Source of the DNA: Myxococcaceae bacterium
GTDB lineage: Bacteria > Myxococcota > Myxococcia > Myxococcales > Myxococcaceae
Length of the DNA stretch: 35,716 bases
Reading direction: 5' to 3'
Assembly (NCBI GenBank): GCA_003818285.1
Contig: RPRB01000030.1
Span: forward strand, 1 to 35,716
This document shows, in pieces, positions 25,679 to 31,439 of this stretch (position 1 is the first letter of the stretch; every line of letters starts with the position of its first letter). The position numbers and the translations under genes were made by a program. The notes beneath the pieces were generated by a model. It did not search any database. It worked only from the letters and a program-made list of their open reading frames with translations, and had not been told where the DNA came from.

Positions 25679-26572
25679 ATGGTGCGCTCTCCGCGTCTGC
25701 GACCGGGGGACCGCGTTGCAGTGGTTGCCCCGTCCTCTCCCTTCGATCGCGAGCGCTTCGATCGCGGCATGGCCCGGCTCGCCGAGCGATACGAGCTCGC
25801 TCCGTCGCCCAGCCTGTTCGAGAAGCGCTGGTACCTCGCCGGCAGCGACGACGTGCGCACCGCGGCGCTGGTCGACGCGTTCTCCGACCCCGGCAACCGC
25901 GCGGTGGTCTGCGCGCGGGGTGGCTCGGGGGCCGCGCGGCTCCTCCCCCGCATCGACTTCGGCCGACTCCCGCCCAAGCCCCTGGTGGGCTTCTCGGACA
26001 ACGTGGCCCTCCACTGCGCGCTCCAGGCCACCGGACGGATCTCCATCCACGGGCCGGTCGTCACCCAGCTGGCGGACCAGCCGCCCTGGGTCTCCGACCG
26101 GTTGTTCGCCCTGCTCGAGGGCCGCGTCCCCGACCCGCTCCAGGGCAAGCCGCGGGTGCCGGGCGTGGTCGAGGGACCGCTGCTCGGCGGGGACCTGACC
26201 GTCGTCGCCACGCTGCTCGGGACGCGGTGGCTCCCGGAGATGAACGGGGCCATCCTCCTCCTCGAGGAGGTGGGCGAGCAGCCATACCGCATCGACCGCG
26301 TCTGGACCCACCTCCGCAACGCGGGGGTCTTCTCGCGCATCGCCGGCATCGCCTTCGGACAGTTCCTGGAGTGCGAGCCCATCGACCGGCGCTACGAGCC
26401 ACACACTTGCCGCGAGGTGGTGGCCGCCCTGGCGGACGAGGTGGGCCTGCCGTGCATCACCGACCTGCCCATCGGGCACGGGGACGTGAACGCGCCGGTG
26501 GCGCTCGGCGCGCGGCACCTGCTCGACGCGCACCAGGGAACGCTCCAGCCGCTCGAGGCCGCCACGGCGTGA
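25679..26572 (+). CDS. LD-carboxypeptidase (peptidase family S66)
   Basis: A 297-residue cytoplasmic serine peptidase. RLRPGDRVAVVAPSSPFD opens the fold, VCARGGSGAARLLPRID is the oxyanion-side motif (usually GGYG, here GGSG), and VGFSDNVALHCAL holds the predicted nucleophile S106. ILLLEEVGEQPYRIDR carries the catalytic glutamate and LPIGHGDVNAPV the histidine. Family members (LdcA, MccF) remove the terminal D-Ala of murein tetrapeptides or inactivate microcin C. Mpl, which uses the tripeptide product, is encoded nearby, favouring murein recycling. GTGA couples it to the small lipoprotein gene that follows. Confidence 0.9.
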   Translation: MVRSPRLRPGDRVAVVAPSSPFDRERFDRGMARLAERYELAPSPSLFEKRWYLAGSDDVRTAALVDAFSDPGNRAVVCARGGSGAARLLPRIDFGRLPPKPLVGFSDNVALHCALQATGRISIHGPVVTQLADQPPWVSDRLFALLEGRVPDPLQGKPRVPGVVEGPLLGGDLTVVATLLGTRWLPEMNGAILLLEEVGEQPYRIDRVWTHLRNAGVFSRIAGIAFGQFLECEPIDRRYEPHTCREVVAALADEVGLPCITDLPIGHGDVNAPVALGARHLLDAHQGTLQPLEAATA

Positions 26573-26850
26573 GGCGCTCGCCAACCGCCCAGCTCCTCCT
26601 GCTCGGGCTCTTGGCCGTCGCGACCGCCGGCTGTCGGGGCTTCGAGCCCACCGTCCGCCGCAGCATGTCCGCCGACGCGAAGTGCGCCGAGGAGAAGGTC
26701 CAGGTGAAGGCGCTCACCGGCGGCGGGTACCAGGCGGACGGCTGCGGCAAGAACGCGGTGTACGACTGCTCCTGGCCGGAGGGACAGGCGCGTTCGTGCA
26801 CTCGCCGCGGAGCGCCTCCATCACCCAGCTTGCCCGGGACCGGCTGGTGA
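26569..26850 (+). CDS. Small lipoprotein with GCGK motif, paralogue A
   Basis: A 93-residue lipoprotein: signal LLLLGLLAVATAGC with the lipid-bearing cysteine at 22, then a short domain with pattern CAEEKVQVKALTGGGYQADG, CGKNAVYDC and a further cysteine (ARSC). The same pattern occurs in the gene at 28033-28341. Function unknown; the domain recurs in myxobacterial lipoproteins in my recollection. It starts at a GTG overlapping the stop of the LD-carboxypeptidase gene, and its own stop overlaps a GTG start of the serine hydrolase gene, so all three are probably coupled. The last ~17 residues look non-conserved. Confidence 0.68.
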   Translation: MRRSPTAQLLLLGLLAVATAGCRGFEPTVRRSMSADAKCAEEKVQVKALTGGGYQADGCGKNAVYDCSWPEGQARSCTRRGAPPSPSLPGTGW

Positions 26851-27998
26851 ACGCTCCGCTCCGCGGGTTGCTCGAGGCGGGAGTCCGTGAGGGCGTGTTT
26901 CCCGCGGCCCAGGCCTCGGTGTTCCACGAGGGCCGCGAGGTCGGCCGGGCCGCGGTGGGCGCCACGGAGGAGACGCCGTTCGATCTCGCCTCGCTCACGA
27001 AGATCCTCTGCACCGCCACGGCCTTCGTCGGGCTGTGGGCCGAGGGAAAGGTGGGCCCGTCCACGCCCGTGTCGCGATGGATCGACGGAAGCCCGCTGGC
27101 GAAGAACGGGGCGACGCTGGGTGATCTCCTGGCGCACCGCTCCGGGCTTCCGGCCTGGCAGCCCTTCTTCGCGGTGGTGCTGCACACCGTGCCCGAGCTG
27201 CGCCGCGCCGACTGCCTCCCGGCGACCCGGCTGAGCGTGCGCAGCGAGGTCAGGGACGCGGCCGCCCGCTCACCGCTGGACGCTCCGCCGGGCACGCGCA
27301 CGCTCTACAGCGACATCGGCTTCCTGCTGGCGGGCGAGATGCTGGCCGAGGCCGCCGGCGCGCCGCTCGACGCCGTGCATGCGCGGATGTCCGGGAAGCT
27401 CGGCGTTGCGACCCACTTCCACCGGCTCTCCACCCGTGGACACGACGACCGGGACCCCTGCGGTGGACGATGGGACGGACTGCCGCTCACCGGCTCGCTG
27501 CGGCCCCGTCCGCCGGCGCCGGGCCAGGAGAACCGCTGGGAGTCGCTCGCCAGCGAGCCGTCTCCCCCCGGGGAGGTGGACGACGACAACGCCTGGGTGA
27601 TGGACGGAGTCTCCGGGCACGCTGGACTCTTCGGCACCGCCACCGAGGTCGCCCGCTTCGGACAGCGAATCCTCGAGGAGCTGGGCGGGGCGGGGCGCCT
27701 GGCCCCGGCCGCGCTGTGGGAACGGGCGGTGACTCCCACGCCGGGCGGCAGCCGCGGGCTCGGGTTCGACACGCCGTCGGGCGAGTCCAGCGCGGCGGGG
27801 CGTCTCCTCGGCCGGAGGCCGCCGGGCGGGTTCGGCCACCTGGGCTACACCGGCACCAGCCTCTGGGTGGACCGTCCCCGCGGGCTGAGCATCGCGCTGC
27901 TCACCAACCGCACGGCGCTGGGGCGAGACAACATGCGCGTCCAGGAGTTTCGCCCCGCCTTCCACGATGCGGTGTTGCAGGCGCTCGGGCTGCGCTAA
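26847..27998 (+). CDS. Serine hydrolase of the beta-lactamase/penicillin-binding (class C) family
   Basis: A 383-residue enzyme with the SxxK motif at S49-LT-K52 (FDLASLTKIL), the tyrosine motif as YSDIG (RTLYSDIGFLLAGE), and the third motif as HLGYTGTS, as in class C beta-lactamases, esterase EstB and DD-peptidase-like proteins. It could be a peptidase, an esterase or a D-aminopeptidase-type enzyme. I place the start at GTG 26847, which overlaps the previous stop; GTG 26796 would add 17 residues. No signal peptide is visible, so it may be cytoplasmic. It lies between two paralogous lipoprotein genes and near LD-carboxypeptidase and Mpl. Confidence 0.87.
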   Translation: MNAPLRGLLEAGVREGVFPAAQASVFHEGREVGRAAVGATEETPFDLASLTKILCTATAFVGLWAEGKVGPSTPVSRWIDGSPLAKNGATLGDLLAHRSGLPAWQPFFAVVLHTVPELRRADCLPATRLSVRSEVRDAAARSPLDAPPGTRTLYSDIGFLLAGEMLAEAAGAPLDAVHARMSGKLGVATHFHRLSTRGHDDRDPCGGRWDGLPLTGSLRPRPPAPGQENRWESLASEPSPPGEVDDDNAWVMDGVSGHAGLFGTATEVARFGQRILEELGGAGRLAPAALWERAVTPTPGGSRGLGFDTPSGESSAAGRLLGRRPPGGFGHLGYTGTSLWVDRPRGLSIALLTNRTALGRDNMRVQEFRPAFHDAVLQALGLR

Positions 27999-28032
27999 AC
28001 CGGAGGCCTCTCGCCTTGCCCAGGAGCCTCCG

Positions 28033-28341
28033 ATGCCCGGAGCCGCGAAGCGTGCCGTGTCTCCCCTTCTCCTCTCCGCCGTCCTCGCCGGCGCGCTCGG
28101 TCTCACGGCCTGCGCGGCGGGCGTGCTCAACACTGCGGCGCGCGACACCCTGGCGAAGAGCGCGAGCTGCCCGGCGGACCAGGTGAAGGTGGAGGAGCTC
28201 GGCAGCTCCCGCTACCGGGCGACGGGGTGCGGCAAGAGCGAGACCTACGTCTGCAAGGCCGCCGAGTACGCAGTGACCTCCTGCGTGCCCGAGTCGTCGG
28301 TTCCCCCGCTGCCGGACCAGCCCCCAGCTCAGGGCAAGTGA
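28033..28341 (+). CDS. Small lipoprotein with GCGK motif, paralogue B
   Basis: A 102-residue lipoprotein with signal AGALGLTACAAG (lipidation predicted at the cysteine of LTAC) and a domain reading CPADQVKVEELGSSRYRATG, CGKSETYVC and a last cysteine (TSC), the same spacing as paralogue A at 26569-26850. It ends in a Pro-rich tail (PLPDQPPAQGK). The ATG has a clear AGGAG ribosome site at 28022-28026. The gene follows the serine hydrolase by 34 bp and ends 4 bp before the stop of the convergent GT87 gene. Confidence 0.75.
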   Translation: MPGAAKRAVSPLLLSAVLAGALGLTACAAGVLNTAARDTLAKSASCPADQVKVEELGSSRYRATGCGKSETYVCKAAEYAVTSCVPESSVPPLPDQPPAQGK

Positions 28342-28345
28342 CTGT

Positions 28346-29854
28346 TCAGCCGGCGGACACCACCGCCGGCGCCTGCATCGCCTTCGCTCTCGGGCGCGGA
28401 CCGGTCACTGCCCAGAGGCACACCGCGATCCCGACCGCCTGCCCGAGAAAGCCGACGACGAACTCGGGAGGCCCCTCGAGGGGTGGCGGACCCATGATCG
28501 CCACCCAGGCCGCGACGAAGGCCACCACCCGGGCCGGCCGTCCGCGCACCTCGCCGGCGAGCAGGGTGAGGAGCCAGAGCATGGAGATCGTCACGTACGC
28601 CGAAGGCGCGAGTGGGCTCCGCAGCGCGGCGAGCGACAGCAGGCCCAGCCAGATGCGCGCATCGCCGAGCCGGCTGGCTGGCCGGAGACCGCCCACCCAC
28701 GCGACGGCCAGCAACCCGAGCGTGTAGATCCACCCGAGCACGCTCCCGAGTCCGCGCGTCATTCCAGGAACGCCGAGGAGGTGGAGCTTGGTGGTCAGTC
28801 CGGGGATGCCGAAGTTCCGCGAGATGATGAACTCCGGCGCCTTCTCGTAGAAGGCGAACGCCTCGCCGGTGCTGATGCGAGGCAGCTGGTAGGTGAGGAA
28901 GGCCTCGAACGGGCTCCACCCGAGGACCCCGAGACCCACCAGCGCGAACAGCCCGCACGCCCCGAGGGTCCACGCCACCTCGCGCCATCGCCGCCGGGCG
29001 AGGAGGAACACCAGAAGGAAGGCGGGAAAGAGCTTGGACACGGTGGCCACCGCCAGGAGCGCGGCGCCGGTTCCGGTCCTCCTCTCCTCGAAGCAGATCA
29101 GGGCCGCGACCGAGAGCACGAGCGTCGCCACGTGGAACTGCCCGAACTGCAGGCCCAGCAGCGTGGGCAGCGAGGCGAGCAGCCCCGGGATTAGCAGGAG
29201 CGCCAGCTGACCGTCCCGTCCGCCCACCCACCGGGCGAGCCACGCCGCGACCAGGACCAGGGCCAGCGCCTGCAGGACGAACCACCCAGCGCGAAGGGCA
29301 GGGAAGTCGTTGCTCACCAGCAGCGCCGCGCGCGGAAACAGGAGGAAGGGGGGCGGGTACTCGAATGGGTCGTCGATCCAGCTGGCCAGCCCCTGGACGG
29401 ACGCCGGGGCGAGCAGCCGCGCCGCATCCCCCGCGAAGGCCGGGTAGTAGCGCTCGTCGTAGAGGTTGACCACGTTGCGGCGAGAGAGCTCCGCGGCCAC
29501 GAAGTACGCGGAGAGGCAGGCGTGGTTCGCCGCCGCCGGATCGGGCACCGCCGAGCCCCAGCGCCGGTCCGGGTCGGCGGTGAAGGCCGCCAGCCGCCCG
29601 ACCTGGACCAGGGAGAGGAGGGCGGCGATTGCCCAGAGAACGGCAAGCACCGGACGGCGCCGGAAGCCTCCGGACACCGACTCCGGCACCCAGCGCCAGA
29701 TCCGCCACGCGGTGGCCGCGCCGAGCAGAACGGCGAGCGCGCCACCGAGCGGTCCGAGCCGCGGCAAGGTGGGGAGCACGATCGCCGCGCACACCAGCAC
29801 ACCGAAGACCCTGACCACGGCCTGCTCGAGATCTCCGAGCGTCGCACTCCGCAC
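28346..29854 (-). CDS. Glycosyltransferase family 87 (DUF2029) membrane protein
   Basis: A 502-residue polytopic protein with about 10-12 hydrophobic helices. After a first helix region (FGVLVCAAIVLPTLP), YPPPFLLFPRAALL, GLQFGQFHVATLVLSVAALI and TVSKLFPAFLLVFLLARRRW (basic loop) fit the GT87 C-type mannosyl/arabinosyl-transferase-like fold that uses polyprenyl-phosphate sugars. WIDDPFEYPPP supplies the acidic residue expected in the first periplasmic loop. Acceptor and sugar unknown. The GTG start has a GGGAGG ribosome site. The gene is convergent with lipoprotein paralogue B and divergent from mpl. Confidence 0.85.
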   Translation of the reverse strand: MRSATLGDLEQAVVRVFGVLVCAAIVLPTLPRLGPLGGALAVLLGAATAWRIWRWVPESVSGGFRRRPVLAVLWAIAALLSLVQVGRLAAFTADPDRRWGSAVPDPAAANHACLSAYFVAAELSRRNVVNLYDERYYPAFAGDAARLLAPASVQGLASWIDDPFEYPPPFLLFPRAALLVSNDFPALRAGWFVLQALALVLVAAWLARWVGGRDGQLALLLIPGLLASLPTLLGLQFGQFHVATLVLSVAALICFEERRTGTGAALLAVATVSKLFPAFLLVFLLARRRWREVAWTLGACGLFALVGLGVLGWSPFEAFLTYQLPRISTGEAFAFYEKAPEFIISRNFGIPGLTTKLHLLGVPGMTRGLGSVLGWIYTLGLLAVAWVGGLRPASRLGDARIWLGLLSLAALRSPLAPSAYVTISMLWLLTLLAGEVRGRPARVVAFVAAWVAIMGPPPLEGPPEFVVGFLGQAVGIAVCLWAVTGPRPRAKAMQAPAVVSAG

Positions 29855-29952
29855 CAGGCGATGCCTCCCGGGAGCGAGTGACTGTAGCGCGGCGGAGCGT
29901 CGAGCACGCGCCGTACGGCCCCTGACCCTCGCGTGCTAGAAGCACACGCAAC

Positions 29953-29957
29953 AGGAG
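29953..29957 (+). promoter_or_regulatory. Ribosome site that points to an ATC start for mpl
   Basis: AGGAG lies 6 bp ahead of the codon ATC at 29964, in frame with mpl. There is no ATG, GTG or TTG between the in-frame stop at 29937 and the ATG at 30066, yet the frame carries the conserved N-terminal VHLLGVAGTGMGS of the protein well before 30066. This makes ATC the best candidate start. Confidence 0.55.
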
Positions 29958-29963
29958 CGCGAC

Positions 29964-31439
29964 ATCACCCGGCCAGCCTCGACCTCCGACCACGGCAACA
30001 TCCTCCAGGACGTCCGCCCCGAGCAGGCCCGGCGCGTCCACCTCCTCGGCGTCGCCGGGACCGGCATGGGGAGCTTCGCCGGGATGCTCAAGGCGGTGGG
30101 CCACGTCGTCACCGGGAGCGACCAGAACGTCTACCCGCCGATGAGCGACATGCTCGCCGCCTGGGGCATCGAGGTGATGACCCCCTACGCGCCCGGGAAC
30201 CTGGACCGGGCGAAGCCCGACCTGGTGGTGGTGGGCAACGTCATCCGCCGGGTCAACCCCGAGGCAACCGCCGTGCGCGAGCGAGGGCTCGCGGCGATGA
30301 GCTTCCCGGCGGCGTTCGGCGCGCTCTTCCTTCGCGGCCGGCACCCGGTGGTGGTGGTGGGGACGCACGGGAAGACCACGACCTCGGCGCTGACCGCCCA
30401 CCTGCTCGTCACCGCGGGGGTCGACCCGTCGTTCCTCGTCGGCGGCGTGACCGGCAACGCGGGCAGCAACTTTCGCGTCGGAAAGGGTCCTCACGTCGTG
30501 GTGGAAGGTGACGAGTACGACACCGCCTACTTCGACAAGGGCCCCAAGTTCCTGCACTACCAGCCGCGCACCGCCATCTTCACCAGCATGGAGCTGGATC
30601 ACGCGGACATCTACCGGGACGAGGCGCACTACGCCTCCGCCTTCCAGCGCTTCGTGGCCCTGGTCCCGCCCGACGGACGCATCGCGGTGAGCGCGGCCTG
30701 GCCAGCGGCGGTGGCACTGGCCCGGGCCAGCCGGGCACGGGTGGTGACCTACGCGGTGAATCCCGAGCACCCGGCGGACGTCCAGGCCCGGGACGTGACC
30801 CACCATTCCGACGGCGTGCGCTTCACCCTGGTGGACCGCGCGCGGCGCGTCGGATCGGTGCACCTCGCGGTTCCGGGGCTCCACAACGTGGAGAATGCGC
30901 TGGGGGCCTGGGCGGCCCTCTCCCCGCTGGGAGTGAGCTTCGATGCCTTCGCCGCGGGCTGTGCCTCGTTCCTCGGGGTGAAGCGGAGGCAGGAGGTGCG
31001 GGGCGAGGTGAACGGCGTCCTGGTGGTGGACGACTTCGCCCATCATCCGACGGCGGTCCGGGAAACCATCCACGCGCTCCGGGCCCGCTGGCCGGACCGG
31101 CGGCTGTGGGCGGTGTTCGAGCCGCGGAGCAACACCAGCCGCCGGAAGCTCCATCAGACGGCGTACGCCGATGCCTTCGCCGGCGCGGCGCGGGTGAGCC
31201 TCAAGACGCCCGAGAAGCACGACCAGGTGCCCGAGGGCGAGGAGCTCGACATCCCTCGCCTGGTGGCGGACCTGCGAGCGCACGGGCTCGAGGCGGACGC
31301 CGCCGGCGACGTGCCGACCCTGGTGGCGCGCGTCGCGGCCGAGGCCCGCAGCGGCGACGTCATCCTCGGCATGAGCAACGGGAGCTTCGGAGGCTTCCAC
31401 GCCACTCTGCTCGCCGAGCTCCGGAAAGGGCACCGGTGA
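29964..31439 (+). CDS. mpl: Murein peptide ligase Mpl (UDP-MurNAc:tripeptide ligase)
   Basis: A ~491-residue Mur ligase-family enzyme that attaches recycled L-Ala-gamma-D-Glu-meso-DAP to UDP-MurNAc. VHLLGVAGTGMGSFAGML is the N-terminal nucleotide-fold motif, SDQNVYPPMSDML is distinctive of Mpl, VVGTHGKTTTSALTAHLL is the ATP P-loop, EGDEYDTAYFDKGPKFLHY the central motif, TSMELDHADIY the metal-binding region, and VVDDFAHHPTAVRET the C-terminal domain. The first ATG (30066) would cut off the start of the first domain, and the frame upstream is open to 29940, so I begin at ATC 29964. The stop overlaps the next start (GTGA). With the S66 carboxypeptidase it would complete tripeptide salvage. Confidence 0.9.
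   Translation: MTRPASTSDHGNILQDVRPEQARRVHLLGVAGTGMGSFAGMLKAVGHVVTGSDQNVYPPMSDMLAAWGIEVMTPYAPGNLDRAKPDLVVVGNVIRRVNPEATAVRERGLAAMSFPAAFGALFLRGRHPVVVVGTHGKTTTSALTAHLLVTAGVDPSFLVGGVTGNAGSNFRVGKGPHVVVEGDEYDTAYFDKGPKFLHYQPRTAIFTSMELDHADIYRDEAHYASAFQRFVALVPPDGRIAVSAAWPAAVALARASRARVVTYAVNPEHPADVQARDVTHHSDGVRFTLVDRARRVGSVHLAVPGLHNVENALGAWAALSPLGVSFDAFAAGCASFLGVKRRQEVRGEVNGVLVVDDFAHHPTAVRETIHALRARWPDRRLWAVFEPRSNTSRRKLHQTAYADAFAGAARVSLKTPEKHDQVPEGEELDIPRLVADLRAHGLEADAAGDVPTLVARVAAEARSGDVILGMSNGSFGGFHATLLAELRKGHR

Follow-up and report, generated by a model that had tools for sequence, protein, structure and literature searches.

The mpl-type Mur ligase gene of a Myxococcaceae bacterium has no standard start codon ahead of its conserved N terminus, and its translation probably begins at an AUC codon at positions 29964 to 29966. 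We put the probability at roughly 60% that this AUC is the real mpl start, serving as a makeshift after an insertion and not as a conserved regulatory device. All positions refer to the window, i.e., the whole stretch of 35,716 nucleotides that was analyzed, which is one contig (C55) of a 5.77-Mb draft assembly of 502 contigs.

The start region of mpl

Read from the proposed AUC start, the gene occupies 29964 to 31439 on the forward strand. Its product contains three Mur ligase domains, all scoring above the Pfam cutoff (PF01225, PF08245, and PF02875), and its best sequence match in the PDB is 3hn7. The best NCBIfam family is TIGR01081 (mpl), matched over the whole model at 372.3 bits, with murC next at 295; as this score lies below the equivalog cutoff of 388.7 bits, the protein is described here as Mpl-type and not as a certified equivalog. 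No second mpl copy was found in the 5.77-Mb, 502-contig draft assembly. Three further matches to Mpl, with 28 to 33% identity, lie close together on another contig (C34) and probably represent different mur ligases.

An earlier note on this DNA had claimed that the mpl frame lacks ATG, GTG, and TTG between an in-frame stop and its first ATG and that the conserved N terminus is encoded upstream of that ATG. Reading of the 42 codons at 29940 to 30065, between the forward-strand TAG at 29937 to 29939 and the ATG at 30066 to 30068, confirmed both points. The segment VHLLGVAGTGMGS, encoded at 30036 to 30074 (forward strand), forms the first strand and the glycine-rich loop, as judged from the sequence and the 3hn7 alignment, and its first ten residues precede ATG 30066. 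Homology to the same-genus relative extends further upstream, over the forward-strand codons at 29994 to 30065 (GNILQDVRPEQARRVHLLGVAGTG). Relatives share the N terminus MADDNGNVL; the window retains its later portion in the form DHGNILQDV and has TCG at the usual place of the relatives' ATG. The absence of standard starts alone is not surprising, as 31 open codons without one are expected in 62% of cases under a Markov null of local composition; the unusual point, as read from the sequence, is that the conserved N terminus lies past the startless stretch.

Four codons in 29940 to 30065 are one base from ATG: AAG 29940, ACG 29946, ATC 29964, and ATC 30000. Of these, reading of the sequence shows a normally spaced Shine-Dalgarno (SD) match for ATC 29964 alone; the AGGAG reported in the earlier note is present at 29953 to 29957 (forward strand), with a spacer of 6 nucleotides. 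Among 20,000 sequences from a Markov model of the local composition, kept open and free of standard starts, with an SD defined as one of four 5-base words at 4 to 9 nucleotides, an ATC in frame and preceded by such an SD arose by chance in 0.5%, such an ATC, ATT, ATA, or CTG in 1.5%, and any near-cognate codon in 4.5%. These frequencies of 0.5 to 4.5% carry only modest weight because the stretch was chosen after being noticed. Codon usage over the ten codons from the ATC to the homologous part scored +2.4 in frame versus -7.9 and +1.9 out of frame. The eight codons upstream of ATC 29964 also scored +1.9; codon usage therefore fails to place the start, since these codons fit about as well. Weak pairing of the AGGAG with a CUCC downstream of it is predicted, and the fold does not exceed those of shuffled sequences in strength (z = 0.67). 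In any forward frame, the only standard start in 29880 to 30065 is GTG 29933, without an SD on reading, and a frameshift in place of an odd start was judged less likely.

The extra segment and mpl starts in relatives

The same-genus relative (Myxococcaceae bacterium, contig JADGQZ010000269.1, locus L034) encodes an Mpl that is 88% identical to that of the window. It aligns to the window at 25846 to 28316 and again from 29992, and between these blocks there are 1,675 bases in the window versus 22 bases in the relative. Two candidate GTG starts for mpl are found in those 22 bases, the first of which overlaps the TGA of a small lipoprotein-like open reading frame (ORF). Homology thus sets in at the border of the 1,675-base segment, no more than a few codons from the position of the native start.

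The window carries a GT87 glycosyltransferase gene at 28346 to 29854 on the reverse strand (PF09594, 83.3 bits) that is extra relative to the same-genus genome, which has no GT87 match. It is followed by a divergent intergenic stretch of 109 nucleotides (29855 to 29963) that would have to hold both the promoter and the leader of mpl. On the other side lie, on the forward strand, the small lipoprotein-like ORF (27967 to 28341), with a lipobox recognized by eye and no Pfam or NCBIfam match, and a beta-lactamase-fold hydrolase (26682 to 27998; PF00144, 141.6 bits), which by synteny stands upstream of mpl in relatives. Of 39 loci, only L005 and L034, both from the one genome of the same-genus relative, have a counterpart of the small ORF, located between the hydrolase and mpl. 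In 36 of the relatives' 38 loci, the hydrolase is on the same strand as the mpl match and at most 400 nucleotides upstream of it, the exceptions being L017, where the distance is 587 nucleotides, and L041, where none was found. GT87 stands beside mpl in none of these 38 loci within the stored flanks and does so in the window only. These alignments are most simply read as an insertion at the 5' end of mpl that occurred in the window's lineage and split the otherwise conserved hydrolase-mpl pair. Since the other relatives share the arrangement lacking GT87, a deletion in the same-genus relative was considered less likely.

A GT87 match at an E value of 1e-15 was found in 1 of 59 other relatives, and matches of 36 to 40% identity were found in 6 of the 194 further genomes sampled from the phylum (G008 and five of genus g23); no donor was identified among those 194. 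The third-position GC content is 0.905 for GT87 and 0.932 for mpl, a composition so like that of its neighbors that it neither dates the gene nor indicates foreign origin. A 12-nucleotide direct repeat, identical at 11 of 12 positions, flanks GT87 (GCAAGTGACTGT at 28334 to 28345 and GCGAGTGACTGT at 29874 to 29885). It is suggestive of a target site duplication, but it is one of many short repeats there and may have arisen by chance. If it is such a duplication, the leader at 29886 to 29991 would be older than the insert.

Matches to mpl at an E value of 1e-60 or better are present in 56 of 59 other relatives (57 of 60 counting the window's genome). From 110 loci taken in, some genomes being counted twice, 93 were readable by the motif pattern and 17 were not. 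The window is the only one of the 93 without ATG, GTG, or TTG upstream of the motif in the open frame, in a lenient count that accepted any start, however far upstream. In all 38 nearest loci (L005 to L042, with 29 loci from same-genus or same-family genomes and nine from named contigs, including L041, whose title reads Gemmatimonadetes), ATG (35 loci) or GTG (3 loci) stands 17 to 26 codons before VHLLG, and the window has neither; 35 of the loci are distinct (33 with ATG and 2 with GTG). The earlier note had suggested that the ATC could be a regulatory device and had proposed comparing the site in related genomes. This comparison shows that the nearest loci do not share the ATC start, which rules out a conserved regulatory start for mpl. 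The suggestion of a regulatory device is unsupported, given this lack of conservation and the fact that the extra segment has taken the place of the native start at this very site. When SDs are scored strictly, by exact match, 18 of the relatives' 38 loci lack an SD of at least 4 bases before the mpl start; a good SD is therefore not the rule for this gene.

Constraint on mpl and alternative explanations

Loss of the native start could also mean that mpl was recently silenced by the GT87 insertion and that no working enzyme is translated. The extra segment replaces the native start, the SD, and the gene neighborhood, and a scan of 29855 to 29963 recognized no promoter, although only the sigma-70 type was scanned and no match was expected by chance either. 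Moreover, Mpl recycling is dispensable in E. coli. Against such silencing, the reading frame is intact for 457 codons from ATG 30066, with a dN of 0.072 and a dS of 0.555 relative to the same-genus relative, and the 24 codons before this ATG comprise 16 identical, 8 synonymous, and no nonsynonymous codons. Across 176 columns invariant in 28 relatives, none is changed in the window only, one is changed in the same-genus relative only, and two are changed in both. Relative rates are similar, with 10 to 13 changes in the window versus 8 to 16 in six outgroup comparisons. Under neutrality, the window's half of dS would have changed approximately 81 of the 176 columns, assuming equal branches, which limits silence to approximately 3% of the branch, and any loss must be younger than this. 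These data speak against an old pseudogene and are still compatible with a very recent loss, and the absence of decay has force only if the insertion is not very recent. A young pseudogene nevertheless seems unlikely.

Initiation at another non-standard codon, e.g., ATC 30000, ACG 29946, or GTC 30012, is improbable. ATC 30000 and GTC 30012 lie inside the conserved N terminus, and a GTC start is known in sigR (PMC5472188, in excerpt), but reading of the sequence shows no normally spaced SD ahead of any of these codons.

The earlier note had also raised an error in the sequence, in which case the true sequence would have ATG at 29964 or an indel that restores a start. The assembly is a draft of 502 contigs, and a single base change would turn the ATC, which follows the SD at a suitable distance, into ATG. 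However, the hydrolase and mpl, the two genes compared, each align unbroken to the same-genus relative, there is no run of one base longer than four in 29940 to 30032, and an indel would have only GTG 29933 to draw upon. Nor does the missing start call for an error, since the extra segment suffices to explain it, and we regard an error as decidedly improbable.

Translation from ATG 30066, the first standard start in frame, with RPEQARRVHLLG left untranslated, is very improbable, because the truncated protein would lose the first strand and retain only the final residue of the glycine-rich loop (GVAGTGM in the 3hn7 alignment, its M being ATG 30066), which in Mpl corresponds to the UDP-interacting loop of MurC (PMC3060825, in excerpt), and this ATG has no SD on reading and is preceded by 24 codons that differ from those of the same-genus relative only synonymously.

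Proposed initiation at AUC compared with known systems

From the earlier note's proposal, the ATC start itself stands as the best-supported reading, given the SD spacing, the infC precedent, and the intact, constrained N-terminal codons; the regulatory role does not. Under the makeshift start, Mpl would be translated from AUC 29964, placed by AGGAG 29953 to 29957, and would begin with (f)Met-TRPASTSDHGNILQDVRPEQARRVHLLG; the N-terminal peptide expected is TRPASTSDHGNILQDVR, with or without Met. The insertion would have severed mpl from its original SD and start codon and from the partner gene upstream, and a putative promoter within the 109-nucleotide divergent gap would drive the gene. A fortuitous SD-AUC combination in the new leader could then support low-level translation. 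Initiation factor IF3 would be expected to keep initiation at this AUC low, as established for infC. Such regulation would follow from the AUC codon; there is no sign of selection for it, and the codon is not conserved. It is possible, though we advance it tentatively, that the case represents natural start codon capture, in which an insertion removed the start of a conserved metabolic gene and AUC rescued it, bringing a cell wall recycling enzyme under IF3 control.

AUC is reportedly a poor start codon in E. coli. The literature matches listed contained no account of AUC initiation for mpl, which is weak evidence of absence; a study of all 64 codons as starts is cited in PMC11497404 (in excerpt). 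Start prediction assumes ATG, GTG, and TTG as the sole starts (PMC5472188, in excerpt), and a gene like mpl here would therefore be called truncated. The mpl AUC start is a further example of an already known phenomenon, that of non-standard starts. If the AUC is used, the case illustrates how a gene deprived of its start can persist, and it provides, besides infC, a second AUC-start gene in the group for testing start fidelity. If it is not used, the gene has been caught soon after silencing.

The infC gene of the window's genome (L145) breaks off at MAKPPVCK, where its contig ends; its start is therefore unreadable, and the infC genes of relatives were used for this reason. The sample comprised one locus from each of 30 genomes, with four second copies left out, and the count was mechanical. 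Of the 29 readable loci, 26, including that of the same-genus relative, have ATC as the nearest start-like codon, 2 have ATT, and 1 has CTG. No ATG, GTG, or TTG occurs within 25 codons upstream in 22 of the 29, and one is present in the other 7. AUC initiation thus looks established for infC in the window's lineage, and infC (dsg) of Myxococcus xanthus reportedly begins with AUC. Two loci depart from the common pattern. L136 has an ATG two codons before the ATC with GGAGG upstream, and this ATG is the more likely start, a possible return to ATG; L142 has an apparent CTG start after AAGGAG.

IF3 represses translation from non-standard starts, and the AUU start of E. coli infC serves autoregulation; in Streptomyces, infC starts with ATC, and the GTC start of sigR, also repressed by IF3, is backed by the mature N terminus and by mutation (all PMC5472188, in excerpt). 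PMC2268962, in its excerpted text, only names an IF3 mutant of M. xanthus. An IF3-regulated start like those of infC and sigR would be expected to be conserved among relatives, and the mpl ATC is not.

The window's gene resembles characterized Mpl proteins (the PaMpl of PMC3060825, in excerpt, and 3hn7) in its three Mur domains, its glycine-rich loop, and an EPRSNT region in the alignment, and it differs in a TIGR01081 score below the cutoff. With sigR (PMC5472188, in excerpt) it shares a non-standard start of the kind that gene finders miss, for which IF3 control would be expected; the start of sigR is backed by experiment, whereas the AUC of mpl is a candidate read from the sequence. With infC, which starts with AUU or AUC, it shares an AUC after a GGAG-type SD, as in the window's relatives, but the AUC of infC is widespread in the relatives read, whereas that of mpl is found in one genome, beside an extra gene.
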